Positions 10,911 through 26,864 of a DNA stretch of 31,917 bases are shown in pieces (within the stretch, counting starts at the first letter, position 1; each line of letters starts with the position of its first letter). The position numbers and the translations under genes are program-made. The notes below the pieces were generated by a model. It searched no databases, was not told the origin of the DNA, and worked only from the letters and a program-made list of their open reading frames with translations. Origin of the DNA: a virus. The stretch is taken from the IMG/VR virus record IMGVR_UViG_3300031951_009668, positions 1 through 31,917 of that record. One strand, 5' to 3'.

Positions 10911-11567
10911 ATGCAATACATTAAATCTCAGGTTTTGAACTTAAAAGAGTTTTTGTTCAAAGCGTTTCTTACTGGTGTGCTTACCTTCATAGGTTTAGCA
11001 TTCCTGTTCCAAGTTTTTATGGTGTTCTTAACCTTCTCAGGTAATGAACAACTAATTGACAAAATTACACACGAACTAACAATTCGTTTTGATGGCAGGT
11101 TTTCCGATAATCCTGCGAACATTAATTACCAAGCCGAAGACCACATTTGGGTTGAAGGTGTAGACAACCAAGTTAAAATTGGTAAGCTAGCCGGCAATAG
11201 AAATTTGGCATTTGGTGTTAAAAATATCTTAGAGGAATTCCTTCAAGAAAAAGGATATGACCTAAATGAAAATGCACAATATAAATTAAAAGTTAATATT
11301 GTGTATTTGGATGTTCTATCTACAAAGACAAACATTTCAGTATTCCATAAAGGAGAAGAAGAAGTGGTTGTTCGTTTACAGGGAATACTTTACAAAGATG
11401 GCAAAAAAGAAAAAGAAGTTGTAGTTGAAGAATCTTCATCTGAAATATCAATGTCCACACTTATTGTAGACCAGGGTGGTAAATTCAATCAAACTTCATT
11501 ATCTAACGCACTTAAAAAAGCATCGGATAAGTTGATTACTAAGCTATTCGGTGGAAAAGCAAAATAA
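10911..11567 (+). CDS. Membrane-anchored CsgG-like envelope protein
   Basis: The 218-residue product has an N-terminal transmembrane segment at about residues 15-42 (KAFLTGVLTFIGLAFLF) without a lipobox. The exported domain carries FGVKNILEEFLQEKGY, which resembles the CsgG-family element in which a helix precedes the strand leading to family-specific beta sheet. It ends with KFNQTSLSNALKKASDKLI. That C-terminal helix closely parallels KFNQSTISISTKKALDIAC in the protein at 19476. The two are probably distant paralogues with a CsgG/TolB-like alpha-beta fold. CsgG itself forms an outer-membrane secretion pore for curli; pore formation here is not shown. Confidence 0.5.
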   Translation: MQYIKSQVLNLKEFLFKAFLTGVLTFIGLAFLFQVFMVFLTFSGNEQLIDKITHELTIRFDGRFSDNPANINYQAEDHIWVEGVDNQVKIGKLAGNRNLAFGVKNILEEFLQEKGYDLNENAQYKLKVNIVYLDVLSTKTNISVFHKGEEEVVVRLQGILYKDGKKEKEVVVEESSSEISMSTLIVDQGGKFNQTSLSNALKKASDKLITKLFGGKAK

Positions 11568-11568
11568 T

Positions 11569-13227
11569 ATGAAAAGAATATTAACCTTAGTAGCGGCAGT
11601 TTTAATAAGCTTTGCAGCAAAAGCTCAAATAATTGTCAACCAATCAGTTTCAGCAGGACCTTATAGAGTAGGGGATACAATCACTGTAACTTATACGGTA
11701 GATAAGGGAACAACTAAGCCACGTTATTTTTGGTTAAGATATGACTACAATAATAAGGCTTTAACTTATGTTTCCACAACCTTCTCACAGGGTAATCAAT
11801 CACAAACTTATTACACAAGTTGGAACAACTATAAGTTTACTGCAGCTGCAAACATCGCAGATACATCTTTATATGCACAATATGGCTCTACACCTTGGGG
11901 ATATGCTGTAAACAACGATTGGAATGTTGGACAGATTGCAGTTCAAAGAGTAGACCAAAGCGTAAATGGTGTAGTGGCAACTCAAAAGTATATTCTTAAA
12001 GACCAAAACACTTATGCTGGTATTTTTAAGTTAAACCTATCTTACGCAACTGATAGTGCTAGTGGAGCAAATATTCCATTCATTAGAACAACAGCTGGTC
12101 CAACAACAATAACTGGTGTAACTGGTAATACTTCTTATTTCAAAGTAAGAGTTCTATTCCCTTCTGGATATAACATTGGTGACCATAACGTTCAATTAAT
12201 GAGATTAAAAACCGATGGTACTGGTGATATAGATTGGTCACAACAACCTATTGCACAAAGAGCATTAGATGGTAGTGGTGAAGCAATATTTACATCAGGT
12301 ATCAGAGTTGGTGATAGTTTAGGCGTATTTGTAGCAAATGCATCATCTAAGACTTGGATGAATAATGTGGTGACTGTATCTGATGCATATAAATCATTCT
12401 TAGGTATTTCACAAACTGATTTAAGTGGTAACACTACTTACTTCACAAGACCAAACTTAGAAAAGAAAGTTGGTAATATTACTAAGAACGATGCCGTATT
12501 TACTGAAGCAGATGCATACTATTCATTTGCGCATGTAATGGGAGTTGATGTATCAGCAAACGCTTTCATTCCAACTTCTACCGCAACTTCTTGGAGATGG
12601 CATAGTGGTTTATTAAATCAAAGTTGGTTAGATGGTACTTCAAAATATAGAGTTTATGTGACACAACCTACACAAACTGTAGATGCTGTATTCGCATGGG
12701 GTGGTGACTTAGATTGGTCACATTCATCTCATCCTGATACAATCGCATCAAGAATAGCAGCTGGTATCTTTACTAATAAATCAAACGATTTAACAATTGG
12801 TGAAATTAAAACTATGGCTATGACATCTAATATGAGTAACTCTTATAATGAGTCTGTATTAGAAGAAGTTAAATTGGGTGTAGCATCTACAATACAAAAT
12901 GGTAAAGTAGTTCTTACCACAAACTTAACTAAAGAAGGTTTAGCAGGTTTGCAAGTTATTATGAACTACGATTCAACAAAATTAGATTTGGAAAATATCA
13001 TATTTGATTCTGGTTCAACTATCACAAACTTCTCAACAAAGGATAATGGTAGATTGACATTTGGTTCTATTGACCAACAAAAGACAGCTAGAATCAAAAC
13101 TGGTACTCCATATAAATTAATATTTAATCCAAAAGTTCCATTAAGCAACACTGCAGGTTTATTCTTCTTTGTGTTAGCCGATGCGGTAGATGCTAATGGA
13201 AAGAAAGTAGAACTTGTAATTGAATAA
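11569..13227 (+). CDS. Exported adhesin-like protein with dockerin-like and cohesin-like C-terminus
   Basis: The ATG at 11569 gives 552 residues beginning with a clear type I signal peptide (LVAAVLISFAAKA, cut before QIIVNQ). The N-terminal half is beta-rich, repetitive in Thr/Ser/Asn and resembles Ig-like surface domains. Around residue 300 lies NDAVFTEADAYYSFAHVMG, a degenerate EF-hand/dockerin half. The second half is WGGDLDWSHS. Residues about 430-552 form a cohesin-like beta sandwich (GLAGLQVIMNYDSTKLDL). The same order of dockerin-like halves and cohesin-like domain is found in the next gene, so the two share a homologous C-terminal half. It could be a host-surface protein or an appendage component. 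Confidence 0.6.
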   Translation: MKRILTLVAAVLISFAAKAQIIVNQSVSAGPYRVGDTITVTYTVDKGTTKPRYFWLRYDYNNKALTYVSTTFSQGNQSQTYYTSWNNYKFTAAANIADTSLYAQYGSTPWGYAVNNDWNVGQIAVQRVDQSVNGVVATQKYILKDQNTYAGIFKLNLSYATDSASGANIPFIRTTAGPTTITGVTGNTSYFKVRVLFPSGYNIGDHNVQLMRLKTDGTGDIDWSQQPIAQRALDGSGEAIFTSGIRVGDSLGVFVANASSKTWMNNVVTVSDAYKSFLGISQTDLSGNTTYFTRPNLEKKVGNITKNDAVFTEADAYYSFAHVMGVDVSANAFIPTSTATSWRWHSGLLNQSWLDGTSKYRVYVTQPTQTVDAVFAWGGDLDWSHSSHPDTIASRIAAGIFTNKSNDLTIGEIKTMAMTSNMSNSYNESVLEEVKLGVASTIQNGKVVLTTNLTKEGLAGLQVIMNYDSTKLDLENIIFDSGSTITNFSTKDNGRLTFGSIDQQKTARIKTGTPYKLIFNPKVPLSNTAGLFFFVLADAVDANGKKVELVIE

Positions 13228-15806
13228 TGAGAATATTATTAACACTATTATTATCTTTAATTGTATCTTTAGGGTTTGGTCAGCAGGTAAATGCACCAGA
13301 CCCTAAAGAGTTTACGGTAAACACATCTGCACAAAATGCAAGCGGTTTTAGTTTAAGTGGATTTAATTCTACTGATGTTTTACTATGTGCTATTGGTTTA
13401 CCTGTTGCTCCAACTGGAACTACGTTTTACATAACAACTACAACGGGTCTTACCGCATCCATTGGATATACTTTGACCGGTAATAAAACTCGTTTAACTT
13501 TTACGGGTACTCAAGCTAACATTAACAACGCATTAGCATCTCTAAAAGTAAACACAACAGGTACCGCAGGTAATGTTCAAATATCGGTATCTGCAACTGT
13601 AAACCCAACTGGATATTTTTATCTTCCAACAAATGGACACTTTTATAGACCAATATCAACCGGTGTGTTTTATTCACAATCTAAAATAAACGCAGCTGCA
13701 ACAACATTCAAAGGGCAAAGAGGGTATTTGGTAACTATAACTTCTTCAGATGAGGATTTATTTATTTTTAATAATGTACCACAATCTAACATATGGTTTG
13801 CATTAACGGATTCAATAACCGAAGGAACTTGGAGAATAGATGATGGACCTGAAAAAGGTACTATCGTAAGAATAGGTACAACAAATCAGCAAGGTGTTTA
13901 TAACAATTGGGCAGGTGGTGAACCAAATAACTGGGGTGGAAACGAAGATTATGCGGTAACTAAATGGGGTGGTTCTCAATGGAACGATTTGAATTCTAAC
14001 TATAATAATCCGTATGTAATTGAGTATGGAACATGGACAAATCCTGATGACCAAACTTTTACTGAATTCTACAATAATAGTGTTATTAATACAAATGGAC
14101 CTAACTTAAATTTGGTAGGTCAATTTAATTTTAACTTTGGTGGTAATATTGATGAAACTAAATTTTTAGGAACGATATTCAAAAGAAACAACTCCACATC
14201 GGCATGGACGGGAAATACATATAAAACATTAAATGGTTTAGGTAGAGTAACTCTTTCTGAACAATTAGATACTGCAAAACTATTTTCATCTGCAATATCA
14301 ATAGCAACCGCAAATGATATGACTGCATATAGTGAAACCGATATAGGTAAGATATACAAAATGACCATAACAGGTAATACAGGTGGTACAATTTGGGGAA
14401 CAAACATATACACAAACGATTCATATATTCCAAAAGCAGCTGTGCATGCTGGGGTAATAACTGCCGGACAAACAAAAGATGTTTACATTAAAATAGTTGA
14501 GGGATTAAATGATTATCCAGCATCAACACAAAATGGTGTAACATCAGATAGTTGGGGAGCATGGGGATTGAGTTATCAATTTGTAAACGAACCATCATCC
14601 TACAAAGCAACCATAACAACTGGACAAGCAGAATTTTCTTATGTTAATATTTCAAATGGTGTTACAACTCTTTATATTGATTTAACTAGATTTGGAAGTA
14701 CACAACCATCAACAATATCTAAAGTTAAAATATTGGATTGTTATGATGGGCCTGTAACATATCAACAAACATCTGCATATTGGGCACATTATGTTGTTCC
14801 ATCAACACTTACAAAAGTTACCGATGGAACTTCGGCATTTAATTCATCAATAAGAAATGCTGGAAATAATAATTGGGCTTTTATGTCTAATATTTCTTTT
14901 GCACAAAATGGTACTTACAAACAACATAAATTCCAATTTCAAAATTATGATTCAGTACAACTTAAAACACTTTACAATAGTATAGTTACTGTATCGGATG
15001 TTTATTTAGCATTTAAGGAATTGGCAGAAGCTGGTGGTATATTTGGTGGTGGTAGTGGAACGCAATTCACTTATGGTATGCAATTCAAAAATGCGGATAT
15101 TGATGATAATGGTGTATTCAATGAAGCGGATTGTTTTAGATTATTACAAAACTTAACAGGTGCTAAAAACTTAGTGGATAACTACACATTGGATAATACA
15201 ATGAAAATAGTTTTAGATTCAACTTATGCAACTATTGGTAAATCTAATTGGAAAGATTTTCCATCTTATTTAGGTAAAGAGTATGGATTCAGTTTATTGG
15301 ATGGTAAAATAAATTACACATACAATTTAGCAGTAACTTGGAAAGGTGATGTAAACTTATCACACTCAGCAACTCCACCTTCAAATGGTATAACAACAAT
15401 GTCAGCAAACTTTGGTGAAAGAAGTATGAGTGTAAATGGTGAACCAACTGCATATATTATCTCGCAAATAGTTGGAGATAGTTTAATTGCAACTATTAAA
15501 TTCAATCCAAATATAAATTCTATTGTTGGTACTCAATTCCAAATAAATTATGATAACTCTTTAATTACGTTATCTTCAACAAAATACAAAACAACAGGCT
15601 CACCTATAAACTTCGCAAATGATAGAGGAACATTTATTAATTTAGGTTCTCTTAATACTGGTGGTGAATTATTAGATGGTACTACCGAATATCAACTTAC
15701 GTTCAAATTAAAACAACAATTGGATAACTCTTTAGGTTTGGTTTCTATTGCTGGAAACGAAGCGGTAAATAAAGATGGTAAAACTATTAAAATAAGAATA
15801 CAATAA
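13227..15806 (+). CDS. Large exported C-type lectin protein with dockerin-like and cohesin-like domains
   Basis: The 859-residue product has a signal peptide (LLLSLIVSLGFGQ) and an Ig/cadherin-like beta domain at about residues 30-127. A C-type lectin-like domain follows at about 130-268. The lectin domain shows the calcium/sugar motifs EPN (232-234, GGEPNNWGGNEDY) and WND (252-254), and the spacing expected before them; EPN is the triplet usually linked to mannose-type sugars. A long beta-rich middle follows. A clear calcium loop D-I-D-D-N-G-x5-D with its helix (ADCFRLLQNLTG) comes next, then WKGDVNLSHS, then a cohesin-like sandwich at about 735-859. The gene overlaps both neighbours by TAATG junctions. 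Confidence 0.75.
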   Translation: MRILLTLLLSLIVSLGFGQQVNAPDPKEFTVNTSAQNASGFSLSGFNSTDVLLCAIGLPVAPTGTTFYITTTTGLTASIGYTLTGNKTRLTFTGTQANINNALASLKVNTTGTAGNVQISVSATVNPTGYFYLPTNGHFYRPISTGVFYSQSKINAAATTFKGQRGYLVTITSSDEDLFIFNNVPQSNIWFALTDSITEGTWRIDDGPEKGTIVRIGTTNQQGVYNNWAGGEPNNWGGNEDYAVTKWGGSQWNDLNSNYNNPYVIEYGTWTNPDDQTFTEFYNNSVINTNGPNLNLVGQFNFNFGGNIDETKFLGTIFKRNNSTSAWTGNTYKTLNGLGRVTLSEQLDTAKLFSSAISIATANDMTAYSETDIGKIYKMTITGNTGGTIWGTNIYTNDSYIPKAAVHAGVITAGQTKDVYIKIVEGLNDYPASTQNGVTSDSWGAWGLSYQFVNEPSSYKATITTGQAEFSYVNISNGVTTLYIDLTRFGSTQPSTISKVKILDCYDGPVTYQQTSAYWAHYVVPSTLTKVTDGTSAFNSSIRNAGNNNWAFMSNISFAQNGTYKQHKFQFQNYDSVQLKTLYNSIVTVSDVYLAFKELAEAGGIFGGGSGTQFTYGMQFKNADIDDNGVFNEADCFRLLQNLTGAKNLVDNYTLDNTMKIVLDSTYATIGKSNWKDFPSYLGKEYGFSLLDGKINYTYNLAVTWKGDVNLSHSATPPSNGITTMSANFGERSMSVNGEPTAYIISQIVGDSLIATIKFNPNINSIVGTQFQINYDNSLITLSSTKYKTTGSPINFANDRGTFINLGSLNTGGELLDGTTEYQLTFKLKQQLDNSLGLVSIAGNEAVNKDGKTIKIRIQ

Positions 15807-16153
15807 TGAGATACCTTTTAACGATATTATTTTTAATTTCAATATGGGGATGTAGAAAATTAGATGTAGTCCCAACCCCACCACCTGCTCCATCTGATAT
15901 ATTCTCTGTTAAAGAAACATCTATTGGAAATGGTGAACAAATCAAGTTCAATCTAAAGACCGAAGGGGTCTATACACTTACTTTATTTGATTCAGTTGGC
16001 CAGCAAGTTGTGGCCCGAGAAAGAATAATTGGAAAAACTGGATTAAATACACTAAAACTTTATACTAAATCACTACCTATTAAATATTTATATCTGACCT
16101 TAGAGGACCAGAATAGTGTTGAAGTAGGTAAAACGTTACTGATAATTAATTAA
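15806..16153 (+). CDS. Lipoprotein with sorting-domain-like beta fold (copy 1)
   Basis: The 115-residue protein has an SPII signal ending WGC, followed by RKLDVVPTPPPAP. The mature domain (YTLTLFDSVGQQVVARERIIGKTGLNTLKLYT) resembles the C-terminal beta-sandwich that targets cargo to the Bacteroidota type IX secretion system, but here it is nearly the whole protein. The next gene encodes a paralogue with the same layout, so the pair arose by tandem duplication. It is coupled to the lectin gene by a TAATG overlap, which suggests that it anchors or assists that protein at the outer membrane. Confidence 0.65.
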   Translation: MRYLLTILFLISIWGCRKLDVVPTPPPAPSDIFSVKETSIGNGEQIKFNLKTEGVYTLTLFDSVGQQVVARERIIGKTGLNTLKLYTKSLPIKYLYLTLEDQNSVEVGKTLLIIN

Positions 16154-16166
16154 AAACAAACAAAAA

Positions 16167-16541
16167 ATGAAAAAATTATTATTAGTATTGTTTGGAGCAC
16201 TATTAATTGTTGGCTGTAGAAAATTAGATATTTATCCACAACCACCAGTTGTAAATCCAAATGAGGAACTAAAAATGGCAGCGGCTTCTGGTTTGAAACT
16301 ACAATCAGTATTCGTAACTTCAGAAGTGGCTATTAACGTAAAGTTAGAAGCTGGACAAAACGTAACAATTAAAATCTTTGATATTGCAAATAGAGTAGTA
16401 TCTAAAGAAACAATGTACGCAAACACCGGTGATAATATATTAAAGGTTTATACTAATGCATTTCCAGCATCAGCATATAGAATAGCTCTATACGATGCAA
16501 ATGGTAAAATGTTAGGTATTACCGATTTTAATAAGTTATAA
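16167..16541 (+). CDS. Lipoprotein with sorting-domain-like beta fold (copy 2)
   Basis: The 124-residue paralogue of the preceding gene has an SPII signal ending VGC and the same RKLD-x-x-P-x-PP motif directly after it. The beta domain reads TIKIFDIANRVVSKE, then TGDNILKVYTNAFPASAYRIALYDANGK. Compared with copy 1 it has a slightly longer linker (NPNEELKMAAASGLK). An ATATTTATA sequence occurs 75 nt upstream inside copy 1, too far away to claim as its promoter. Function is unknown; it is probably located in the outer membrane. Confidence 0.65.
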   Translation: MKKLLLVLFGALLIVGCRKLDIYPQPPVVNPNEELKMAAASGLKLQSVFVTSEVAINVKLEAGQNVTIKIFDIANRVVSKETMYANTGDNILKVYTNAFPASAYRIALYDANGKMLGITDFNKL

Positions 16542-16568
16542 AATTTGTAACAATAAAATAAAAACAAA

Positions 16569-16886
16569 ATGTCAGAAGAAGTAGAAAGCACAAATGATGG
16601 TACTTGGTCTGGTTTGAAGAAAACAATAATCGGTGTTGCAACAACAGCGGTTATGGGCTTAGGTACTTGGGGTGTAACAAAAATCACAGGCGGTGGAGAT
16701 GAAGCAGCTCCTGCACCTGCAGCAGCACCCGTAATCAACATCACAAATTCTAACCAGCAATCTCAATCAGCAGGTGGAACAACTAAAATCATTGAAAGAG
16801 AAAAAGTTGTAGAAAAACCAGCTGCAGCTCCAGCACCTAAAAAGAAAGATGGTGATGAGTTCAAAGAGAAACCAGCTGAGTGGTAA
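16569..16886 (+). CDS. Single-pass membrane protein with Ala/Pro-rich tail
   Basis: The 105-residue product has a soluble acidic start, a moderately hydrophobic segment at about residues 16-40 (TIIGVATTAVMGLGTWGV) and a Pro/Ala-rich linker. A polar stretch with INITNSNQQSQSAGG and a lysine/glutamate-rich end follow. It was not recognised. It begins a run of four small membrane proteins up to 17962 that may be lysis or envelope proteins. Confidence 0.55.
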   Translation: MSEEVESTNDGTWSGLKKTIIGVATTAVMGLGTWGVTKITGGGDEAAPAPAAAPVINITNSNQQSQSAGGTTKIIEREKVVEKPAAAPAPKKKDGDEFKEKPAEW

Positions 16887-16889
16887 TAT

Positions 16890-16994
16890 ATGGGATATAA
16901 AATTGGGGTTACATTATTTTTCATAGCCTTCTTATTATGGGCTATGAATCATGCAAATAACGAAAGAATACGAAAAGAAAATGGCAGAGAATAA
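16890..16994 (+). CDS. Micro-membrane protein, 34 aa
   Basis: An ATG 3 nt after the previous stop opens a 34-codon frame, MGYKIGVTLFFIAFLLWAMN and then a polar, basic end. The hydrophobic stretch of about 16 residues can span or insert in a membrane. It overlaps the next gene by 14 nt if that gene starts at 16981. Its position between two membrane protein genes without a gap argues that it is translated. A holin- or spanin-like accessory role is only a guess. Confidence 0.45.
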   Translation: MGYKIGVTLFFIAFLLWAMNHANNERIRKENGRE

Positions 16995-17652
16995 TCAACA
17001 ACCACCAAGCGGCTTTAAGGACCTTCTTAATTCAATGATGAAAAGAAGATGGTGGATTACCGCATTGGTATTAGGTGGGTTTATGTTTATAATGGCAGGA
17101 ATGTTCGGGGCTATATTTATGAAATCCGAAATTGCAGGTGAATGGAAAGAACTTCTTTTATTATTATTAGGTGCTTTCATTGGTAGTTATGGTAAAATCA
17201 TAGATTACTGGTTTAGTGATACCGATAAAGATAAGATGTTAGTTCAGAAAATGGATGAGGAAGATGGAACTTCACTTTCACATACAAACGATATGAAGGA
17301 AAGTAACAAACCTACAACTCCACTTATTCCAGATGCATTTGTCCAAGCTGCAAATCATGCACATGAAATCAATCTAATAGAAGCTAACAAACCAAAAGAA
17401 GAAAAAGTTGAATCACAAATTACAGACGCTGTAACCGCTCCAACTCCAAAAGCAGGTAGAACTGGTGTAGAAGTTGATGAAGATGGTGATGGTGTAATGG
17501 ATGGTATTGACTTTGATGGTGATGGTAAGATTGATGTTTATTTCGCACATAGACAGTGTGAACACATTTGGGGTGATAAAGATGGTGATGGTGATGAAGA
17601 ATGTTTGAAATGTGGAAAGATAAAAGACGAAGATGCTGAACAAGCAGGGTAA
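16981..17652 (+). CDS. Two-pass membrane protein with tandem calcium loops and Cys motif
   Basis: The ATG at 16981 (MAENNQQPPSGFKDLL, 223 residues) is preferred; an in-frame ATG at 16951 would overlap the micro-ORF more. Two transmembrane segments lie at about residues 22-45 (ITALVLGGFMFIMAGMF) and 54-72 (ELLLLLLGAFIGSYGKII). After a charged linker come tandem calcium loops (DEDGDGVMDGIDFDGDG) near residue 175. A Cys/His cluster with C-x-H-x-W and a later ECLKCGK, which could bind zinc, follows, with another DKDGDGDE loop inside it. The calcium-loop pair is nearly the same as in the protein at 4030. Confidence 0.6.
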   Translation: MAENNQQPPSGFKDLLNSMMKRRWWITALVLGGFMFIMAGMFGAIFMKSEIAGEWKELLLLLLGAFIGSYGKIIDYWFSDTDKDKMLVQKMDEEDGTSLSHTNDMKESNKPTTPLIPDAFVQAANHAHEINLIEANKPKEEKVESQITDAVTAPTPKAGRTGVEVDEDGDGVMDGIDFDGDGKIDVYFAHRQCEHIWGDKDGDGDEECLKCGKIKDEDAEQAG

Positions 17653-17701
17653 TATAAATCAGTTACGCATAGGTTACATTAATAAACTAAATAAGTAAAC
17701 T

Positions 17702-17962
17702 ATGGGATGGTTAAAAGAACTATTCAGCGATGACAATCACATCAATGAAAAATCAGTAGTAGGTTTCGGTGCATTCATAATGATGGTTATTACTCTTTCA
17801 GTTGATATTATCACTGGTGTAATGGGTAAAGAAATGCCAATCCACGAATTTGTATTTGATGGATTTATGGTAATCACATTGGGAGCATTCGGTATCGCTT
17901 CAGTTGATAAATTCATCAACGCTAAGAAGGGAAAGAAAGTTGAAGAAGAAGAATTAGGATAA
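17702..17962 (+). CDS. Holin-like small membrane protein
   Basis: The 86-residue product has a short amphipathic start and two hydrophobic helices (about residues 17-38, FGAFIMMVITLSVDIITGVM, and 50-70, FMVITLGAFGIASVD). A lysine/glutamate-rich cytoplasmic tail follows. Size, topology and the short glycine-containing loop fit several phage holin families, which form lethal inner-membrane holes at lysis. No endolysin gene is adjacent, so the assignment stays tentative. It is followed directly by a terminator. Confidence 0.5.
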   Translation: MGWLKELFSDDNHINEKSVVGFGAFIMMVITLSVDIITGVMGKEMPIHEFVFDGFMVITLGAFGIASVDKFINAKKGKKVEEEELG

Positions 17963-17965
17963 TAT

Positions 17966-17994
17966 AAAGGGAGAACATAGTTTCTCCCTTTTTT
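17966..17994 (+). terminator. Rho-independent terminator, copy A
   Basis: AAGGGAGAA (17967-17975) pairs with TTCTCCCTT (17982-17990) around a 6-nt loop, then T6. It is nearly identical to the terminator at 19423, and both run into ATATTTATA. Confidence 0.9.
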
Positions 17995-18003: not shown

Positions 18004-18017
18004 CTAAATAAAATGTT

Positions 18018-18295: not shown

Positions 18296-18910
18296 ATGGC
18301 AGGTATCGCAGACCAATTCGCAGGTCTTCCTATTGAAGATTTGATTGTTTCACCTATTGTTGGTATGGCAAAAGGTCAAGCAAAATTAAACGAAGTAACT
18401 TGGAAATATATTTCTGAAGTAGCATTCGTAACGGACGAGAAAACTAAAAAAACTAAAGCACGTGCTTTAGATGTTGAAATGAACAGAGTTGTAACCGATG
18501 GTGCAACAGGTGAACAAAAACTACAAAAAATTTATAGTAAAGTTCCTATGTTACCATTAGTACCACTTCCTTCATTAGCAATTACTTCAGCAGATATTGA
18601 ATTTGCTATGGAAGTAAAAACTTCAGAGACAGAAAAAAGTGATGTAAAAACTGAAAGCAGTGTTGAAGTATCAGCTGGTGGTAGATTTTGGGGTATGAGC
18701 TGGAATGCAAAAATTTCTGGTAAAGTAGCTACAAACAAAGAGAACACTAGAAGCACTGACAACTCAGCTAAATACAATGTAAAAGTACACGCTGAACAAT
18801 TACCAGCAACTGAAGGTATGTTGAAATTATCAGATTACCTAACTCAAATGTTAGAACCATCTTTAATTCCACTTACTGAAGACCCAGCAACTGGTGGTGG
18901 TAAGAAGTAA
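18296..18910 (+). CDS. DUF2589-type protein
   Basis: The 204-residue protein shows features I associate with DUF2589. It begins with a helical LIVSPIVGMAKGQAKLNEVTWKYI segment. The signature VPMLPLVPLPSLAI (about residues 83-96) is followed by ITSADIEFAMEV. A variable Ser/Lys-rich stretch comes next, and then a final strand KYNVKVHAEQLPATEGMLKL with a helix. The family is found in bacteria and some phages and has no established function known to me. The next gene encodes a shorter, related partner. Confidence 0.65.
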   Translation: MAGIADQFAGLPIEDLIVSPIVGMAKGQAKLNEVTWKYISEVAFVTDEKTKKTKARALDVEMNRVVTDGATGEQKLQKIYSKVPMLPLVPLPSLAITSADIEFAMEVKTSETEKSDVKTESSVEVSAGGRFWGMSWNAKISGKVATNKENTRSTDNSAKYNVKVHAEQLPATEGMLKLSDYLTQMLEPSLIPLTEDPATGGGKK

Positions 18911-18938
18911 TAGATAAAAATAAAATAAAGGTTATATT

Positions 18939-19415
18939 ATGGCAAGATTAAATGTAGAGGAACTTGTTGGCGGTCTCTTAGAGGCCGCCATGGTTTCTCA
19001 AGGTATAAGTGAAAGACAGCATATTAATGCTATCCGAAACTATTTCAATGAAGATGGTACACCCAAAACCACTACCTTTAATATAGGTGGTAAGGATTTG
19101 GTTGTACCTCTTTATATTTTGGCGGACCATTCATCTATTGGATTGGATGAGCTAGATATTGAGTTTACTTGTAGACTTATATTTGGTGACGAAGAAAAAG
19201 AAGTATCCAGTCTTAAAAAATCTCTATTAGGTTTATTTAAGAAAAAAGGATACGAACACAATATCAAAGGTATTGAAGTTGATTCAGGTTACAATCCAAC
19301 TGAAGCTGGTATGGCTAAAATAAAGGTTAAGTTTAAGGCTGATGAAAAGCCCGAAGCTGTAAGTAGATTGATTGATGAATATATCAAAAATCTTGAAGAC
19401 CCAAATGTAAAGTAA
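18939..19415 (+). CDS. DUF2589-like partner protein
   Basis: The 158-residue protein has an N-terminal helical segment (VEELVGGLLEAAMVSQGISERQ). A VVPLYILADHSSIGLDELDIEFTCRLIF element follows, in the same order as the signature of the preceding protein (proline strand, then a xxDIEF strand). It ends with a beta strand and an amphipathic helix (EAVSRLIDEYIKNL). The shared order suggests a related fold and a hetero-oligomer with the upstream product. The leader TAAAGGTTATATT before the ATG resembles the one at 10374. A terminator follows. Confidence 0.55.
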   Translation: MARLNVEELVGGLLEAAMVSQGISERQHINAIRNYFNEDGTPKTTTFNIGGKDLVVPLYILADHSSIGLDELDIEFTCRLIFGDEEKEVSSLKKSLLGLFKKKGYEHNIKGIEVDSGYNPTEAGMAKIKVKFKADEKPEAVSRLIDEYIKNLEDPNVK

Positions 19416-19475: not shown

Positions 19476-20204
19476 ATGAAAAAATTATTCGTATTATTAA
19501 GTATATTGTTGATTACGAGTGGTGTGGGTGTCCTACATGCTCAAACAATAGGAAAAACTAAAACTGAAGATTTCAAAGCAGATTTTGAAAAGAAAAAAGA
19601 TATATCTGCATATTTGGATTATGAAGGTCCAAAGAAAAATATCCAAATCCTTAAATGTGGTATTGGTGAAGAAGTGTACGAAATGTACCCTGAATTAAAA
19701 GAAAAGAGAGTAGGATTGGGTGTTGCAAATATCGTATTAGAATATTTGGATAACCTTAATCGTTTTGAATTTACCGAAGATAAGACTGAAATTAAAAATA
19801 GAATGGTGCAACAATTCAAAGCATCAAACGCTGGTATTTCCGAAAACAAAATTGAAGGTAGAGGAAAGATTAAATTGGCACATTACTTTGTAGAGATTGA
19901 AGTATATGATTATTCAGTATCAGAAGATGAAACTATTAACTTAAAAGATGGTATCAAAGATAACTTAGTAACTCGTTTAGGTTTACAGGTTAGATTTACA
20001 AATGCTGAGAATGGTTCAATCATCGCAGCATCTGGTTTGGGTGAAGCTAAAACAAATAGAGAACTTACTTTACTTTCTGATGCAACTGTGGACCCAATTA
20101 AATTCAACCAATCTACAATTAGTATTTCAACTAAGAAAGCATTGGATATAGCTTGTGCAAACATTTTGGACAAGATGATTAAAAAGGGTGTATTTGAAAA
20201 ATAA
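19476..20204 (+). CDS. CsgG-like exported protein
   Basis: The 242-residue product has a type I signal peptide (LFVLLSILLITSGVGVLHA, cut before QTIG) and no lipobox. The mature domain contains RVGLGVANIVLEYLDNLNRFEFTED, which corresponds to the CsgG-family helix followed by the strand before the variable region. The end FNQSTISISTKKALDIACANILDKMI matches the family's C-terminal helix. CsgG is the outer-membrane export channel of curli; related proteins occur in cyanophage and other marine phage genomes. The length is slightly below E. coli CsgG, and the missing acylated Cys makes a classical pore uncertain. Its stop overlaps the start at 20204. Confidence 0.65.
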   Translation: MKKLFVLLSILLITSGVGVLHAQTIGKTKTEDFKADFEKKKDISAYLDYEGPKKNIQILKCGIGEEVYEMYPELKEKRVGLGVANIVLEYLDNLNRFEFTEDKTEIKNRMVQQFKASNAGISENKIEGRGKIKLAHYFVEIEVYDYSVSEDETINLKDGIKDNLVTRLGLQVRFTNAENGSIIAASGLGEAKTNRELTLLSDATVDPIKFNQSTISISTKKALDIACANILDKMIKKGVFEK

Positions 20205-20446: not shown

Positions 20447-20449
20447 GAT

Positions 20450-20572
20450 ATGGCAAAAGCAAAACCAAAACCAGTACCTATGAGAAGTAGGAGAAGCGGT
20501 TTGAAAAAAATGAAGTTAATTAAACAAAATTTAGAAGTATTAAAAAGATTAGAGAATGATAAAGTTAAGTAA
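20450..20572 (+). CDS. Small basic peptide, 40 aa
   Basis: The short frame from the ATG at 20450 encodes MAKAKPKPVPMRSRRSGLKK and a helical, basic second half. It starts 3 nt after the previous stop and overlaps the next start by 17 nt, so packing supports it. The composition (Lys/Arg/Pro-rich, no acidic residue in the first 30) suggests DNA or RNA binding. It has no leader of the shared type. Confidence 0.5.
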   Translation: MAKAKPKPVPMRSRRSGLKKMKLIKQNLEVLKRLENDKVK

Positions 20573-21047: not shown

Positions 21048-21073
21048 TTTCTTAATATTAAAATAACCAATTT

Positions 21074-21136
21074 AGAGAAACGCTTTCATAGTTATTGGGG
21101 AACTAACCTAAAATAACTTTATGAGAGCGTTTCTTT
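21074..21136 (+). promoter_or_regulatory. Long hairpin sequestering the TonB-receptor start codon
   Basis: The arm 21076-21090 pairs with 21120-21134 (15 bp with one G-U). After a 2-nt bulge, GTTATT (21091-21096) pairs with AATAAC (21112-21117), around a 15-nt loop. The ATG at 21121-21123 is inside the 3' arm. T-rich sequence follows, so it could also terminate or attenuate transcription. Confidence 0.65.
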
Positions 21137-23373
21137 TATTTCTGTTACTACCTTTATCAACATTTTCGCAAGATACATTATTTAACAAAGTCCTTTCAGA
21201 AGTGACTGTAAAATCTGCCGGTCAAAGGATAACCGAAGCATCCATTGTAAGAAGTATTCGTAATTCAAATGTAGTATCCGATGGATTATCAGTTGAGTTT
21301 ATTAAAAAAACACCCGATAGAACCGTTGGTGATGCACTTAAAAGAGTAAGCGGTGTTACTATTCAAAACGATAAGTTTGTATTGGTAAGAGGATTAGCAG
21401 ACCGTTACAATTCTGCTATGTTAAATAAAACTCTACTGCCATCAACCGAACCAGATAGGAGAGCATTTTCATTTGATATAATTCCTACATCCCTAATTGA
21501 TAATATAATCATAGCTAAATCAGCTTCAGCAAATCTACCTGGTGATTGGAGTGGTGGATTGGTGCAAGTTTCTACAAAAGAAGTTTCCAACAATTTTTTC
21601 AATATCTCATTGGGAAGTGGTTGGGGTTCGGTTTCATCTCTTAAAGATTTTAAGTTAGTTCAAGCTACTGAATTTCCTTCCACATTCCCATCCACTTATC
21701 GTTTCCGAATAAGCCCAAACATTGAAAGGAGAGCATTTACAAAGTTAATAGGTTCACCAACAACCGAAGGGTTTACATCTCCACTTAATACAAATGGAGC
21801 ACTTTCATTTGGATATAAGAAGGGTAAGTTTAATGCTTTACTTAGTTCTACAATACGAAACTCATTCAATCTAAACTATATTGAAAGAACTGATTATCAA
21901 TCTTCAACTGAATTGGCATACGATTACAAAGATACACTTTACTCAAAAAGATTTCAAGCAAATGGATTACTTAACTTAACTTATTTGGGTGAAAACCGAT
22001 ATAGTTGGAAAACATTAGTAAGTTATCAAACTGATGACTCGTATATGAATAGAGTTGGTGAGAACTATGATAATGTTCAGAATGTATTAAGTAATTCTTC
22101 TAATCATATCCGCAACTTTGTTCTTAATTCACAATTAGACGGTAAGATTAAGACATGGGATTTTAATGTAGGATATAATTTTATTTTTAGAGAACAACCT
22201 GATTATAGAGTTAATCCAATTACAAAATCATTGGGTGTAAACGAACCATATGCAACCGCATGGAGAGACACATATCGTTTCTGGTCAATTATGGATGAGA
22301 ACGGAATGAATGGTAACATTAACAAAGATTTTGGTAAGATAAAAGTTGGTGGTGGTTATCTAAAAAAGATTAGAGGATTTAACGCAAGAGTTTTTAGATA
22401 TACCGCAGTTGATATGTTGGATGAAATAACAAACAACACCGATAGATACACCGCAGATTTTGATTTAGGTAATGGTTATGTAATGTATGATGGTGAGTGG
22501 GGTAAATGGAAATTGAATAGTGGATTGAGAACTGAATATAATATCTTTAGAGTTAATACATCTGATTTTAGCGGAATACAAATAAATGTAGATAGAGAGT
22601 ATTTGGATTTGTTACCTTCATTAAATCTTTCATACAACGAAGAAAAAAGTAAGTATAGATTTTCAATGAGTAAAACATTAGCAAGACCTGAATTTAGAGA
22701 AGTGGCTAATTTTGCTTATTATGATTTTGTAAGAAACGCACAATTATTGGGTAATTCAAATCTTAAAAAATCTGACATCTATAATGTAGACCTTAAATGG
22801 GAATACTATCCATCAAATAAAGAAAGTATATTCATTTCTGCGTTTGGTAAAAACTTTGTAAATCCAATTGAACAAATAGTAGCGGATGGTTCAGTTCCTT
22901 CCAATCTTCTTTTAACTTACACAAATCCAAAACAAGCAACAATATATGGTGTAGAATTGGAAATCAGAAAAAAGATAAATGGTTGGTTTGATTTTTATAC
23001 AAACACTTCGGTAATGAATTCGCAAGTAAATGCAAATGGAATTAGAAGACAATTGCAAGGACAATCAAACTATGTTATTAATTCTGGTATAAACATACAT
23101 AAGAAAAATGAAACATTAAATATTTCATATAATAGAGTTGGAGATAGAATATCAGCAGTTGGTTTCCAAGGTTACTCTGATATTTTTGAAAACGCTAGAG
23201 ATGTAATAGATATTGTGTTTCTACATAAATTAAAAAAAGGAGAACTTAAATTTGCGGTAGCAGATATACTTGCACAACCATCGGTTTATTATCAAAAGTT
23301 ACAAACAAAACGAAATTTGATAAAAACAAACAACGAACAAACAATTTCATTAACATTAAATTTAACACTATGA
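21121..23373 (+). CDS. TonB-dependent outer-membrane receptor
   Basis: The 750-residue protein has a signal peptide (FLLFLLLPLSTFS before QDT) and a TonB-box-like EVTVKSAG. A plug domain covers about residues 25-150 (TVGDALKRVSGVTIQND, FVLVRGLADRYNSAML, LIDNIIIAKSASANLPGDW, GGLVQVSTK). A 22-strand-type barrel rich in alternating aromatic residues follows, ending NEQTISLTLNLTL. Unlike many Bacteroidota receptors it lacks the N-terminal carboxypeptidase-regulatory-like domain. Such receptors import siderophores, B12, glycans or other ligands across the outer membrane using TonB/ExbBD. The substrate is unknown. It overlaps the following lipoprotein gene (ATGA). Finding one in a phage is unusual. 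Confidence 0.88.
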   Translation: MRAFLLFLLLPLSTFSQDTLFNKVLSEVTVKSAGQRITEASIVRSIRNSNVVSDGLSVEFIKKTPDRTVGDALKRVSGVTIQNDKFVLVRGLADRYNSAMLNKTLLPSTEPDRRAFSFDIIPTSLIDNIIIAKSASANLPGDWSGGLVQVSTKEVSNNFFNISLGSGWGSVSSLKDFKLVQATEFPSTFPSTYRFRISPNIERRAFTKLIGSPTTEGFTSPLNTNGALSFGYKKGKFNALLSSTIRNSFNLNYIERTDYQSSTELAYDYKDTLYSKRFQANGLLNLTYLGENRYSWKTLVSYQTDDSYMNRVGENYDNVQNVLSNSSNHIRNFVLNSQLDGKIKTWDFNVGYNFIFREQPDYRVNPITKSLGVNEPYATAWRDTYRFWSIMDENGMNGNINKDFGKIKVGGGYLKKIRGFNARVFRYTAVDMLDEITNNTDRYTADFDLGNGYVMYDGEWGKWKLNSGLRTEYNIFRVNTSDFSGIQINVDREYLDLLPSLNLSYNEEKSKYRFSMSKTLARPEFREVANFAYYDFVRNAQLLGNSNLKKSDIYNVDLKWEYYPSNKESIFISAFGKNFVNPIEQIVADGSVPSNLLLTYTNPKQATIYGVELEIRKKINGWFDFYTNTSVMNSQVNANGIRRQLQGQSNYVINSGINIHKKNETLNISYNRVGDRISAVGFQGYSDIFENARDVIDIVFLHKLKKGELKFAVADILAQPSVYYQKLQTKRNLIKTNNEQTISLTLNLTL

Positions 23374-24566
23374 GAAAATTATTAGGACTTATTTTAATCT
23401 TAGGATTATTCAGTTGCGAAAAAAATTTAGGTGGATATGAACCGCCTGTAAATGTTCCCCTTTCAACAACATTAAGTGGAACATACAAAGAAACTATCAC
23501 ACTAACCGCAGATAAAGTGTGGATATTAAAAGGATATGTTTATATCACAAATGGTTCACAATTAAGAATTCAACCGGGTACAAAGATTGTATCTGATGTT
23601 GCTGAAAAGGGTGCATTGTGTATCGAAAGAGGTGCACAAATAATTGCGGAAGGAACTGCACAAAAGCCAATCGTATTTACATCAGGAAAACCAGATGGTG
23701 AGAAAGCACCTGGTGATTGGGGTGGTATTGTAATATTGGGTATAGCTCCAACTAATAGAACATCAGAACCAACTATTGAAGGTGGTATTGGTAGACCTTA
23801 TGGTGGTACACTACCTGCTGATAATAGTGGTGTTCTAAAATATGTAAGAATTGAATACGCTGGAATCGCAGCAATGCCAAACTCCGAAATTAACGCACTA
23901 ACATTGGGTGGTGTTGGTAGTGGAACAATCATTGAGAATGTTCAAACTATTTACGCTAACGATGATGCATTTGAATTTTTTGGTGGAACTGTAAATGCTA
24001 AAAACTTATATGCATTCGCAACCGCAGATGATGATTTTGACTTTGATTTTGGATATACTGGAACTATTACAAATGGTGTGGCAAAGAGAGACCCACAATT
24101 TGTAGATAACGGAGATGCTGGAAATGGTATTGAGTGTGATAACGATGGAACAGGTTCAACCGCAACTCCATATACACATCCAAAACTATTCAATATGATT
24201 TTAGTTGGACCTAATACCTCAACTGCATTAGCAAACCATAACTTAGGTTTAAGATTTAGGAGAGGGACTCAATTCACAATGAAGAATAGTGTAATTTGGG
24301 GATGGATGAAAGGTGGATTGAGTTTAGAAAGTAATGAAACAGCACAATTCGTAAAAGATGGTGTTTCTGTATTTGAAAACAATTCAGTAGGAACATTTAA
24401 TCCTACCCTAAACTTTATCAGTAGAGCAACCACAATTTTAACAAATGAACAACTTAAAACTTTAGCATTAGGTAAAGGTAATAAGGAAATAGATGTGGTA
24501 ATACCTGAATTAGATAAACCAATATGGGTTAATGGATGGACTAGATTTCCAACAAAAGGTAATTAA
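23370..24566 (+). CDS. Parallel beta-helix surface lipoprotein, receptor partner
   Basis: The 398-residue product has an SPII signal ending LFSC, then EKNLGGYEPP. The repeated short strands (LRIQPGTKIV, AQIIAEGTAQKPIVFTSG, DWGGIVILGIAPTNR, GVLKYVRIEYAGIA, DDAFEFFGGTVNAKNLYAF, ADDDFDFDFGYTG) are those of a right-handed beta-helix family common in Bacteroidota. Members are often misannotated as 'multidrug transporter' and are frequently encoded next to TonB-dependent receptors. The Asp-rich DDDFDFDF segment may bind metal. The ATGA overlap with the receptor indicates coupled translation and suggests a two-part uptake or binding unit like SusCD. Confidence 0.8.
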   Translation: MRKLLGLILILGLFSCEKNLGGYEPPVNVPLSTTLSGTYKETITLTADKVWILKGYVYITNGSQLRIQPGTKIVSDVAEKGALCIERGAQIIAEGTAQKPIVFTSGKPDGEKAPGDWGGIVILGIAPTNRTSEPTIEGGIGRPYGGTLPADNSGVLKYVRIEYAGIAAMPNSEINALTLGGVGSGTIIENVQTIYANDDAFEFFGGTVNAKNLYAFATADDDFDFDFGYTGTITNGVAKRDPQFVDNGDAGNGIECDNDGTGSTATPYTHPKLFNMILVGPNTSTALANHNLGLRFRRGTQFTMKNSVIWGWMKGGLSLESNETAQFVKDGVSVFENNSVGTFNPTLNFISRATTILTNEQLKTLALGKGNKEIDVVIPELDKPIWVNGWTRFPTKGN

Positions 24567-24570
24567 AACG

Positions 24571-24597
24571 AAAGGGAGTACTAAACTCCCTTTTTTT
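24571..24597 (+). terminator. Rho-independent terminator after the receptor pair
   Basis: AAAGGGAGT (24571-24579) pairs with ACTCCCTTT (24585-24593) around ACTAA, then T7. ATATTTATA follows directly. Confidence 0.9.
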
Positions 24598-24606
24598 ATA
24601 TTTATA
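24598..24606 (+). promoter_or_regulatory. Candidate late-promoter element ATATTTATA
   Basis: The exact motif lies 19 nt before the ATG at 24626. Between them is a strong Shine-Dalgarno AAGGAGG, unusual for Bacteroidota genes. Confidence 0.6.
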
Positions 24607-24625
24607 GGTACAAAAAGGAGGACCT

Positions 24626-25447
24626 ATGAAAAAACTATTATTCTTAATAATGTTACTACCATTAGTTGCATTATCTCAAGTCTCCTCTTGGAGAACTAAT
24701 CCACCACAACCTAGAGTATCAACTCCATCTGTTCAAGGACAGAGAAGTGATATGAGTATGTGGAGAAACCAATCACCTAGAGAGTTTAATAGACCACAAA
24801 CAAAGCCTGGCTCAAACATCATCATCAACAACAATCCTTGGGGTTGGAACAATTGGGGATGGGGTTGGAATAGATGGGATATGTGGGGAGCACCTGGTTT
24901 CGGTTGGAACTTCTATACTCCTATGTGGTATTGGAATGATTGGGGATACCGTCAACCTGCAAGAGTATATGTTTACAATGATGGTAGGAAAGATACTATA
25001 AGAGGTAAAAAACCTATCATAAATTTTGGTTTACACAAAACAACAAACGAACAAATCGGTGGTTATTTCGCAGTTGGTAACAAAGGATATTTCATAATGG
25101 ATTTTGTTTCAACTTATGCAACTGACCGTTCTACTTTCTTTCCTTATGGTACAATTGGTAGAGTAGATTTCCCACTAATTTCAGACCTTAAAAAAGAAAG
25201 AACGTTTTATGTTGGTGGTGGTATCCGATACAAAAGAACCGGCTTCCATACAATGATAGGTGCTGGTAGAGAGATAGTAAGATGGAGAGGTAAAGATGCT
25301 TTGGGTGAAATAACTTTCCCTAAGTACAATTCAAATTTTGTTACAGCGAAGGTCGGTGTTATGTATGACATTAAAAACTTTACAATCAAGTTTGACACTG
25401 ACCCTATTAGAGATTATGTCCAATTTGGTTTAGGACTTAATTTCTAA
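24626..25447 (+). CDS. Exported Trp/Asn-rich protein with beta-barrel-like end
   Basis: The 273-residue product has a signal peptide (LLFLIMLLPLVALS before QVSSW). A low-complexity segment at about residues 20-108 is rich in Pro, Asn and especially Trp/Gly (NNPWGWNNWGWGWNRWDMWG). From about residue 130 the pattern turns to amphipathic beta strands (INFGLHKTTNEQIGGYFAVG, FYVGGGIRYKRTGFHTMIGA) and ends QFGLGLNF with a terminal Phe, like a small outer-membrane barrel. It is preceded by AAGGAGG, the clearest ribosome binding site in the window. It forms a transcript with the next gene, which has a similar barrel-like end. Confidence 0.6.
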   Translation: MKKLLFLIMLLPLVALSQVSSWRTNPPQPRVSTPSVQGQRSDMSMWRNQSPREFNRPQTKPGSNIIINNNPWGWNNWGWGWNRWDMWGAPGFGWNFYTPMWYWNDWGYRQPARVYVYNDGRKDTIRGKKPIINFGLHKTTNEQIGGYFAVGNKGYFIMDFVSTYATDRSTFFPYGTIGRVDFPLISDLKKERTFYVGGGIRYKRTGFHTMIGAGREIVRWRGKDALGEITFPKYNSNFVTAKVGVMYDIKNFTIKFDTDPIRDYVQFGLGLNF

Positions 25448-25448
25448 A

Positions 25449-26864
25449 ATGGTAAAATATCTAAGTATTTTTTTATTGGTATTAAGTTGCCTGTTCACAC
25501 AAAATGTGAGCGGGCAAACTTATACCCAATCCTATGTGGACAAGTGTACTGGTGAATTAAAGCTAGTTACAACACAAATGGTGAATGGTAACTATGTGGT
25601 ATCATTCTATAATCAGGTCAGAACATTTACTGCAACTGAAGTAATGAGTGGTGTTACACAGGCTTGGTTGACAACCGTTTACGCACAATATTCTACAATG
25701 GGTTGTCCTACTAATCAGGTGGTGCAACAAACTGTAAACCAAACTGTAAATCAGGCAACATCCCAAGCAGCATCAGCAGCGGCATCGGCAGCAAGTTCAG
25801 CTGCATCATCTGCTGCTAGTTCAGCCGCTTCATCATCAGCAAGTTCAGCAGCAAGCAGTTCCGCATCAGCGGCAGCATCTTCATCGGCTAGTTCTACACC
25901 ACCACCTACATCTTCATCATCAGGAAGCACTACTTCTGGAAGTTCTAGCAGTAGTTCTGGTTCATCTTCATCCAGCTCAAGCAGCTCATCATCTTCATCT
26001 TCTGAAACTAAATCGGAGAGTAGTAGTTCATCATCTTCATCAGAACAAAAGAGTGAACAAAAATCTGAGCAGAAGCAGGAAGAGCAAAAGAGTGAAAGTA
26101 AATCGGAAGAAAAGAAAGAAGAATCTAAATCCGAAGAAAAAAAGGAAGAAAAGAAAGAGGAGAAAAAAGAGGAAAAGAAGGATGATAAAAAGAAAGGAAA
26201 GAATGCAGTAAATCCTATGTTAGTTTCAGCAGATTTAGCAGGAACTCAAGATATGGAAGGAAAATATGCAGCATTGGCAAGTGTTGGTATATCTAAATCA
26301 TCTCTTATGGGTGATAAATCTTATTCTGCTACCGCACTTATTTGGAGTACGTTAGACCAATACGCAGTTAGTGGTGGTATGACAAAGATGGATTTTGAAG
26401 AAGGTAAATTAAATGGTATTCATTCATATTCAGTAACCGCAGCGTATCTGAAAGGAACTTGGATGCAAATGTTAGGATATACCTATGTAAAACCACATCC
26501 TAAATGGGGAACTTATGGATACAATGTTGGTGTTATTGCATTACAAATTAAAAATCCAATGACTCAAAAATATAATTTGAATTTGTTGACATCATTTGTG
26601 GGATTTTGGACTAAACCTTACCAAATCAATCGTAAAACCACAATTTCACCACAAATATTCTATATGAATTCACCAATTAGTTACAATCCATCAACAAAGG
26701 GAACATTGGTGACAAGAATACCTGGTTTTGTTGTGGGAAGTGGATATGATTTCAGACTTAGTAAAAGATTCGCATTTTCAGCAGCTTATAGGGCTGTATT
26801 ATCTTTAGAACCTAAGTTTACTATTATGAACAACTTCCAAATTGGTTCTAAATTGGTTTTGTAA
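25449..26864 (+). CDS. Exported protein with Ser/Ala and Lys/Glu repeats and a beta-barrel-like domain
   Basis: The 471-residue product has a signal peptide (IFLLVLSCLFTQNVSG before QTYTQS) and a small N-terminal domain with two Cys (C33, C86). A 145-residue low-complexity segment follows: Ala/Ser repeats (105-150), poly-Ser (155-200), then Lys/Glu/Ser and Lys/Glu repeats (200-250). The C-terminal 220 residues are amphipathic beta strands with aromatic girdles (YSATALIWSTLDQYAVSGG, GTYGYNVGVIALQI, FVVGSGYDFRLSKRFAFSAA) ending in QIGSKLVL, suggesting an outer-membrane barrel. The Ser run mixes TCA, TCT, AGC and AGT codons. Confidence 0.6.
   Translation: MVKYLSIFLLVLSCLFTQNVSGQTYTQSYVDKCTGELKLVTTQMVNGNYVVSFYNQVRTFTATEVMSGVTQAWLTTVYAQYSTMGCPTNQVVQQTVNQTVNQATSQAASAAASAASSAASSAASSAASSSASSAASSSASAAASSSASSTPPPTSSSSGSTTSGSSSSSSGSSSSSSSSSSSSSSETKSESSSSSSSSEQKSEQKSEQKQEEQKSESKSEEKKEESKSEEKKEEKKEEKKEEKKDDKKKGKNAVNPMLVSADLAGTQDMEGKYAALASVGISKSSLMGDKSYSATALIWSTLDQYAVSGGMTKMDFEEGKLNGIHSYSVTAAYLKGTWMQMLGYTYVKPHPKWGTYGYNVGVIALQIKNPMTQKYNLNLLTSFVGFWTKPYQINRKTTISPQIFYMNSPISYNPSTKGTLVTRIPGFVVGSGYDFRLSKRFAFSAAYRAVLSLEPKFTIMNNFQIGSKLVL
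25761..26201 (+). repeat. Low-complexity coding repeat (Ser/Ala then Lys/Glu)
   Basis: This internal part of the preceding gene encodes Ala/Ser, poly-Ser and Lys/Glu repeats. At DNA level it is a mixed, imperfect triplet repeat, with purine-rich GAA/AAA/AAG runs from about 26041 onward. Confidence 0.8.

Follow-up and report, generated by a model that had tools for sequence, protein, structure and literature searches.

Two separable cassettes of genes for exported proteins, a TonB-dependent receptor–lipoprotein pair and a lectin cassette, meet in a phage fragment

Cyanophages carry the phosphorus-acquisition genes pstS and phoA, and the phage phosphorus genes known to us act in the periplasm or the cytoplasm, not in the outer membrane. 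The present work concerns a virus record of 31,917 bases, IMG/VR IMGVR_UViG_3300031951_009668, a fragment analysed over its whole length (hereafter, the window), in which genes for exported proteins crowd together between positions 10911 and 26864 and form two cassettes, modules A and B (Table 1); individual genes are designated by the position at which they start. Genes for PhoH, thymidylate synthase and an endonuclease family indicate that the window is of phage origin, and the host is probably a member of the Bacteroidota, since the homologues come from there. In Flavobacterium johnsoniae, Fjoh_0545/0546 encode a receptor with Plug and OMP_b-brl_3 domains and a lipoprotein of pectin-lyase fold in a PhoBR operon, and their transcripts change by 8.0 and 9.9 (read here as log2 values) upon phosphate depletion; such receptors are induced by phosphate depletion only, and related lipoproteins are 31–36% identical, at about half length, to a Caulobacter low-phosphate lipoprotein (PMC8115612). 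The genes for ElpS and the receptor CC0171 adjoin in Caulobacter crescentus, for which the authors suggest a link with phosphate uptake (PMC2996285). In the one published note that we found on a phage receptor of this kind, the receptor of the megaphages LR745206 and Mar_Mega_1 is called SusC and proposed to take up carbohydrate (PMC9723777), while the main text of a study on phosphorus genes in soil phages does not mention TonB (PMC10987575). For the lectin cassette, we found no published description in the one open library searched, which is no proof of absence.

The exported-protein cluster consists of two separable, conserved cassettes. The original prediction had taken it for one envelope-remodelling island, with at least ten exported or outer-membrane-type products in 16 kb. 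The latter number was borne out: ten such open reading frames (ORFs) are present, nine recognised with an in-house signal-peptide rule, by which a cleaved signal and an anchor look alike, and 10911 by its N-terminal membrane stretch. The rule is positive for 9 of the 18 ORFs in the block and for 3 of the 31 in the rest of the window (1583, 4030 and 26891; Fisher p = 0.004), or 9/18 against 1/31 (p = 1.9e-4) once two ORFs are set aside on visual inspection, namely 4030, which has multiple transmembrane (TM) stretches, and 26891, which is anchored at its N-terminus. Block ORFs without an export signal include 18018, the DUF2589 pair at 18296–19415, 20204 and 20556.

Related loci were collected with three queries. 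From the receptor search of IMG/VR, 63 viral loci were kept (65–100% identity, in varied contexts), onto which, as well as onto L001 and L002, the window genes were mapped; the lectin search gave the best 80 of 257 stretches, from which 79 loci were examined (L061 omitted), and the lipoprotein search the best 80 of 171 stretches. The three sets overlap, several contigs sitting in two or three of them, and faecal "Bacteriophage sp." records of 5.7, 7.7, 15.9 and 16.7 kb were excluded as phage evidence. Full flanks, with more than 23 kb available, exist for 35 of the 79 lectin loci (the "lectin loci" of Table 1). Seven genes (10911, 11551, 13227, 15806, 16167, 16569 and 19476) are present in all 35; 11551 is the other label of the cohesin gene, for which ATG 11569 was chosen as the start over GTG 11551. 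Four more genes occur in 11 to 33 of these loci, as listed in Table 1, and the receptor and lipoprotein genes of module B in five and eight, respectively. Amongst the 30 whole contigs of the lectin set longer than 60 kb, four carry the receptor. With cut loci included, 10911 is found in 77 and 19476 in 59 of the 79. The 35 loci are not 35 independent cases, because they include near copies (L243/L251/L253; L280/L281) and a contig, L230, that is the contig of L003 and shares 99–100% identity with the window across the genes matched. Gene order is constant for most genes, while 25449 and the receptor pair shift place, and the median spacing between successive module A genes is 1, 1, −1, 5 and 26 nt.

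Two independent cassettes therefore meet in this phage: the genes of the cluster do recur in many relatives, but as two modules that are mostly apart, not as one block. Family scans for Gp23, PstS-type proteins, SusD_RagB and PHO4 covered 50 of the 63 receptor records, many of them fragmentary. A T4-type Gp23 capsid protein was detected in 12 of these 50, including seven of the ten longer than 100 kb (the others are fragments or are without Gp23), and in 15 of the 30 large lectin contigs, 14 of them above the cut-off. The occurrence of Gp23 in both contig sets implies that modules A and B reside at least partly in T4-like phages.

Table 1. Features of the exported-protein cluster and extents of the two modules (positions in the window)
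Feature	Position	Strand	Evidence
218-aa N-terminally anchored protein, weakly CsgG/Lipoprotein_16-like	10911..11567	+	PF03923 E 7e-5, under cut-off
Secreted cohesin-domain protein	11569..13227	+	Cohesin E 2.7e-5, barely above cut-off; signal peptide by rule
Secreted C-type lectin with LCCL	13227..15806	+	Lectin_C 5.8e-11, LCCL 1.6e-15
Small lipoprotein 1	15806..16153	+	Lipobox by rule, also in 61/66 relatives
Small lipoprotein 2, Ig-like domain	16167..16541	+	Lipobox by rule in 65/65 relatives; DUF3244 E 5e-5, under cut-off
Single-pass membrane protein, Ala/Pro-rich	16569..16886	+	35/35 lectin loci; immuto homologue gp016
Membrane protein, usually within module A	16951..17652	+	31/35 lectin loci
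Probable holin with two TM stretches, adjoining module A in roughly half of the loci	17702..17962	+	Two TM stretches; 19/35 lectin loci
CsgG-fold exported protein (predicted)	19476..20204	+	Model match to CsgG; 35/35 lectin loci
TonB-dependent receptor	21121..23373	+	Plug 1.6e-7, OMP_b-brl_3 2.6e-24
Right-handed beta-helix lipoprotein (predicted fold)	23370..24566	+	Lipobox by rule; 4-nt overlap of its start with the receptor stop
Terminator-like stem directly after the lipoprotein gene	24572..24592	+	Many relatives have the same pattern directly downstream of the pair
Exported protein with C-terminal Phe	24626..25447	+	Signal peptide by rule; 11/35 lectin loci
Exported Ser/Lys-rich protein, C-terminal part possibly barrel	25449..26864	+	33/35 lectin loci, position varies
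Module A extent	10911-16886, 19476-20204, 25449-26864, usually also 16951-17652	+	Co-occurrence in lectin loci
Module B extent	21121-24566	+	TonB-dependent receptor and beta-helix lipoprotein pair

Module B is the predicted TonB receptor with its lipoprotein, and both identifications hold. The receptor profile matches the colicin I receptor in the PDB (E 2e-6) and TIGR01782 (TonB-Xanth-Caul) at E 4e-48, yet under the cut-off of the latter model. The structure model of the lipoprotein (predicted local distance difference test, pLDDT, 80) has 50 listed structure entries at Z 19.9–23.1, which are by title largely beta-helix proteins; Foldseek alone returned no match for this model at E 1e-3, and the sequence has no match in the PDB and none in Pfam at E 0.01. 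Both genes occur in 47 of the 62 loci L004–L065, with the 4-nt stop/start overlap in 46 of the 47, while the other neighbours of the pair vary, the next commonest family being found in 16 loci. Wherever copies were compared, both module B genes show purifying selection: the ratio of nonsynonymous to synonymous substitution rates (dN/dS) is 0.06–0.19 for the receptor (seven comparisons) and 0.03–0.28 for the lipoprotein (six), these being the 13 comparisons used; a fourteenth, on 19476, was skipped for frame.

In a quick tree of the receptor (69 rows, 62 of them different; L003 omitted), 48 phage receptors form a single clade (Shimodaira–Hasegawa-like approximate likelihood ratio test, SH-aLRT, 96), sister (100) to Aquirufa antheringensis and a second genome. 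The receptor of megaphage LR745206 stands apart, on a long branch of unsure placement, and phages seemingly gained the pair at least twice, as this separate position suggests. In LR745206.1 (L002; 634,780 bases), the lipoprotein gene precedes the receptor gene, opposite to the order in the other phages. Five viral loci (L024, L027, L032, L038 and L046; coordinates L024:6146-9427, L032:6534-9872 and L038:5628-8903) have a further gene beside the pair or close to it, with a product of about 1,090 residues. The receptor-like product has CarboxypepD_reg and OMP_b-brl_4 domains in the three copies scanned, and relatives of the gene are near the pair in 3 of 20 cellular regions (L114, L121 and L122, of which L114 was domain-scanned).

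The closest cellular loci (66–69% identity) have phosphorus genes beside the pair in three out of three cases, L066 and L067 as judged with Pfam and L104 by sequence. In L066 (Aquirufa), genes for a metalloenzyme-family phosphatase and a PHO4 transporter come directly after the pair, and an alkaline phosphatase is encoded some 5 kb further along. The first two of these also follow the pair in L067, a Cytophagaceae metagenome-assembled genome (E 9e-88 and 2e-47 for PHO4 in the two loci). As judged by sequence, L104 (G012) has this order too, and a phosphate porin is encoded nearby. Close receptor relatives are present in 4 of 222 Aquirufa-family genomes at E 1e-60, with an identity of just 36% in one of the four, whereas the lipoprotein family is widespread, occurring in 250 of 395 Bacteroidota genomes at E 1e-30. 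In a wider set of 20 cellular regions, five have phosphate-type neighbours: L104, L105, L107, L112 (Pfam) and L110. The neighbours are PHO4, PhoU_div and Porin_O_P in L105 and L107; L112 has PBP_like_2, two BPD_transp_1 and ABC_tran on one side and a kinase–regulator pair on the other. The phosphorus link is firm for the nearest cellular copies and patchy further out.

Module B probably serves phosphorus uptake, a function that we prefer because of these cellular neighbourhoods and the precedents of Fjoh_0545/0546 and ElpS/CC0171. The pair would be a cell-derived phosphate-starvation uptake pair, the receptor and lipoprotein of which are inserted into the outer membrane of the host and powered via host TonB. 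Phosphate or a phosphorus compound would be brought to the periplasm, where host inner-membrane carriers continue, and where the water is poor in phosphorus this supply would sustain the synthesis of phage DNA. Several observations weigh against this. Fifteen of the 20 cellular regions are without phosphorus neighbours, as judged by eye from the beginnings of the ORFs, and L110 has a generic two-component pair only. The PstS-type family PF12849 and PHO4 are each found in 0 of the 50 scanned phage receptor records, by which the phages would rely on the host for the inner steps. The one pair without the 4-nt overlap (L054) has a broken receptor frame. In Caulobacter, moreover, cc0171 is constitutive and its loss left ElpS production going (PMC2996285).

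TonB receptors mostly import other nutrients, and one could suppose that module B takes up a carbohydrate, an iron complex or a vitamin, much as the megaphage receptor was read as SusC for carbohydrate (PMC9723777). We think this improbable, as the LR745206 receptor, too, adjoins the same kind of beta-helix lipoprotein and the nearest cellular copies of the pair sit in phosphorus loci. SusD_RagB was found in 0 of the 50 phage receptor records, while a Bacteroides control genome was positive; a SusCD carbohydrate importer was ruled out on this count and because the partner models as a beta-helix without a Pfam match. Many phages enter via TonB receptors, and the receptor gene adjoins an adhesin cassette in the window, so that module B might be a decoy or receptor-modifying device that replaces or blocks the host receptor of competing phages. 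This is very improbable, given that the receptor travels with a lipoprotein partner in the pairing seen in phosphorus loci, that the compared copies are under purifying selection and that the receptor elsewhere mostly lies away from the adhesin cassette.

Module A is a phage-typical cassette. The profile of 19476 (A3) detects its family in 30 of 31 phage records, whereas none of 296 Bacteroidota genomes gave a match at E 1e-5; the idea that the module was taken as a block from a cell is unsupported, 19476 being the sole module A gene searched in these genomes. For the structure model of 19476, of modest confidence (pLDDT 63), CsgG (6l7a) is the top match with Z 11.8; the best eight entries are all CsgG (Z 10.3–11.8), followed by PelC (Z 8.8) and FlgT (Z 8.3). 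The fold comparison was needed, as the 19476 profile has no match among PDB sequences up to E 1, and a Pfam scan of 79 module A members, including 14 homologues of 19476, gave matches to 17 families but none to the CsgG model. The window copy is without a lipobox by rule, which is positive in 17 of 58 relatives. Of the two CsgG-like proteins predicted, this one is well supported, while 10911 is weakly so: it has two short motifs in common with 19476, in the same order, but the profile comparison of the two gives 12% and 20% probability, and 10911 has chance-level matches only among PDB sequences. Homologues of 10911 are 29–85% identical (mean 56%), and those of 15806 31–85% (mean 48%).

The lectin was recognised as predicted, by its Lectin_C and LCCL domains, and a cohesin-domain protein is encoded upstream of it, both with an exported-type N-terminus by the in-house rule; the two small lipoproteins have a lipobox by the same rule (Table 1). 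In the lectin, the profile of which matches C-type lectins in the PDB, the EPN and WND columns are invariant in 9 of 9 aligned rows; these motifs mark calcium-dependent, mannose-type binding. The LCCL region is present in four of the nine aligned lectins (window, L004, L055 and L059) and missing from the other five, which is module swapping. Dockerin-like stretches seen by eye in 11569–13227, 13227–15806 and gp013 and gp014 of the phage immuto have no Pfam match even at E 1. The barrel nature of 24626 and 25449 is putative.

A version of module A is carried by a cultured phage, Flavobacterium phage immuto (NC_055915; host Flavobacterium sp. LMO8), in the row gp013–gp019. Profile matches link 13227 to gp013 (47 bits), 11551 to gp015 (13 bits), 16569 to gp016 (57.6 bits), 19476 to gp017 (308 bits), 25449 to gp018 (33.5 bits) and 10911 to gp019 (25 bits); E-values were computed over 11 proteins only, and the weaker matches (11551, 10911 and 25449) are modest, that of 11551 with gp015 stemming mainly from the common cohesin domain. 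By tblastn, 19476 and gp017 are 53% identical over 99%. In gp015, a Cohesin domain (5.9e-9) and a type IX secretion system (T9SS) sorting domain (2.4e-8) both score above curated cut-offs. The two window lipoproteins have no clear match among gp012–gp022, and immuto is absent from the records that match the window receptor.

We consider it probable that module A acts on the surface of the infected cell. Its lectin and cohesin proteins would be exported by Sec, perhaps then by a CsgG-type channel or the host T9SS, and held at the cell surface by the lipoproteins; the lectin would most likely occupy surface glycans and so alter adsorption, although control of adsorption as the purpose of the module is put forward only tentatively. 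Equally tentative is a bolder possibility, by which module A may be the phage's own outer-membrane secretion and display machine, built from a CsgG-type channel, a scaffold of cohesin and lectin proteins and anchoring lipoproteins, that surrounds the infected cell with a layer able to bind sugars, by which the cell is held, hidden or protected, and that is shared by a large phage group and was not found in the cells searched. A point against surface action is that the membrane genes 16951 and 17702 are possibly lysis genes; the 17702 homologue in L062 comes after an ORF that is lysozyme-like by eye. Against it, too, stands the view of module A as a virion adhesion apparatus, with the lectin and cohesin proteins as a fibre or decoration that binds host glycans. 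C-type lectin folds do act as phage receptor-binding proteins (Mtd of BPP-1), 13227 has the EPN and WND motifs, and Ig-like domains are common on virions. We nonetheless regard a virion role as rather unlikely: most members have signal or lipoprotein N-termini across relatives, by the in-house rule, the CsgG fold has, to our knowledge, no role in virions, and the sorting signal for a host secretion system on gp015 is hard to reconcile with a virion part. The Sec and lipoprotein signals and the T9SS domain argue for export and against ordinary virion assembly; with the genes present in many relatives as well, neither of the two outcomes named as refuting the original prediction was observed.

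That modules A and B occur apart, and that the LCCL domain and the DUF2589 genes come and go, would also suit an accidental pile of morons without a common logic. This is an apt description of the meeting of A and B, but an unlikely one for the block, since within module A seven genes stay together in 35/35 loci in spite of the divergence of 10911 and 15806. As an overall explanation, two independent cassettes that re-equip the outer surface of the host appear to us somewhat better than an even guess. The export signals of both modules are predicted, and their transport, timing, surface location and purpose are what we infer.

Envelope remodelling, as originally proposed, stands in outline, without the single block and the shared promoters. 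Promoter-like sites show no excess in the window (73 versus 79.2 in shuffles), so that promoters common to the island and the rest of the phage are unsupported. The terminators are indeed shared in that the terminator-like stems at 17967, 19423 and 24572 are one common stem (0.00 expected by chance), but all three lie inside the island and do not tie it to the remainder of the window. The GC content per kb is 0.30–0.39 in the block and 0.26–0.34 outside.

Further features of the window were noted. Two DUF2589 proteins are encoded at 18296–18910 and 18939–19415; the first is identical to its L008 counterpart, with six third-position changes in the gene, while gene 19476 has 67 differences from its L008 counterpart, and the identity reflects strong constraint or recent exchange. 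Small proteins with the start M-I-x-L-x-x-I/L-x-x-E are encoded at 20204, 20556, 27821, 28168, 28482 and 29103, with variants at 27547 and 29404. The motif, a pattern derived from the window itself, occurs in 48 of 1395 ORFs from 62 related loci, near relatives counted (21 loci positive), versus 0.4 in shuffles. It resembles the sequence by which internal head proteins of T4 are targeted to the capsid, and the motif proteins are perhaps a battery packed in the head. The product of 10374–10739 matches PHROG 858, a starvation-inducible transcriptional regulator (E 7e-15), and that of 29982–30794, a possible amidase, weakly matches the C45 autoproteolytic acyltransferase/hydrolase family, under the cut-off.

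If the functions proposed are correct, a phage-borne outer-membrane gate with its lipoprotein moves the point at which a virus controls nutrient uptake out to the cell surface, and the megaphage "SusC" needs re-reading. Module A poses a testable puzzle, namely why many large phages, the cultured immuto with its own version included, retain genes for exported lectin, cohesin, lipoprotein and CsgG-fold proteins as a set. The CsgG curli export channel has its fold in common with the 19476 model (Z 11.8) at an identity of about 11%. Immuto gp013–gp019 resembles the window in having lectin, cohesin, membrane, CsgG-like, Ser-rich and second CsgG-like genes in a row, whereas its gene order is different, its proteins are mostly shorter and its cohesin protein has the T9SS domain. 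Like the pstS and phoA type of phage genes, module B would supply a part of the phosphorus uptake of the host. With Fjoh_0545/0546 (PUSIV), likened by description, it has in common a Plug and OMP_b-brl_3 receptor adjoining a pectin-lyase-fold or beta-helix lipoprotein, and some of the cellular relatives found here are also beside two-component and phosphate genes, while the phage pair is without a regulator or phosphatase. Many phage receptors, furthermore, are without the N-terminal CarboxypepD_reg-like part (about 750 versus 825 aa). ElpS/CC0171, compared on the same descriptive basis, similarly pairs a secreted lipoprotein with a TonB receptor, but is located beside type II secretion system genes in Caulobacter, unlike the phage pair. 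The megaphage "SusC" is a phage-encoded TonB receptor as well, the LR745206 copy of which differs from that of the window in its separate place on the tree and in having the lipoprotein gene first.

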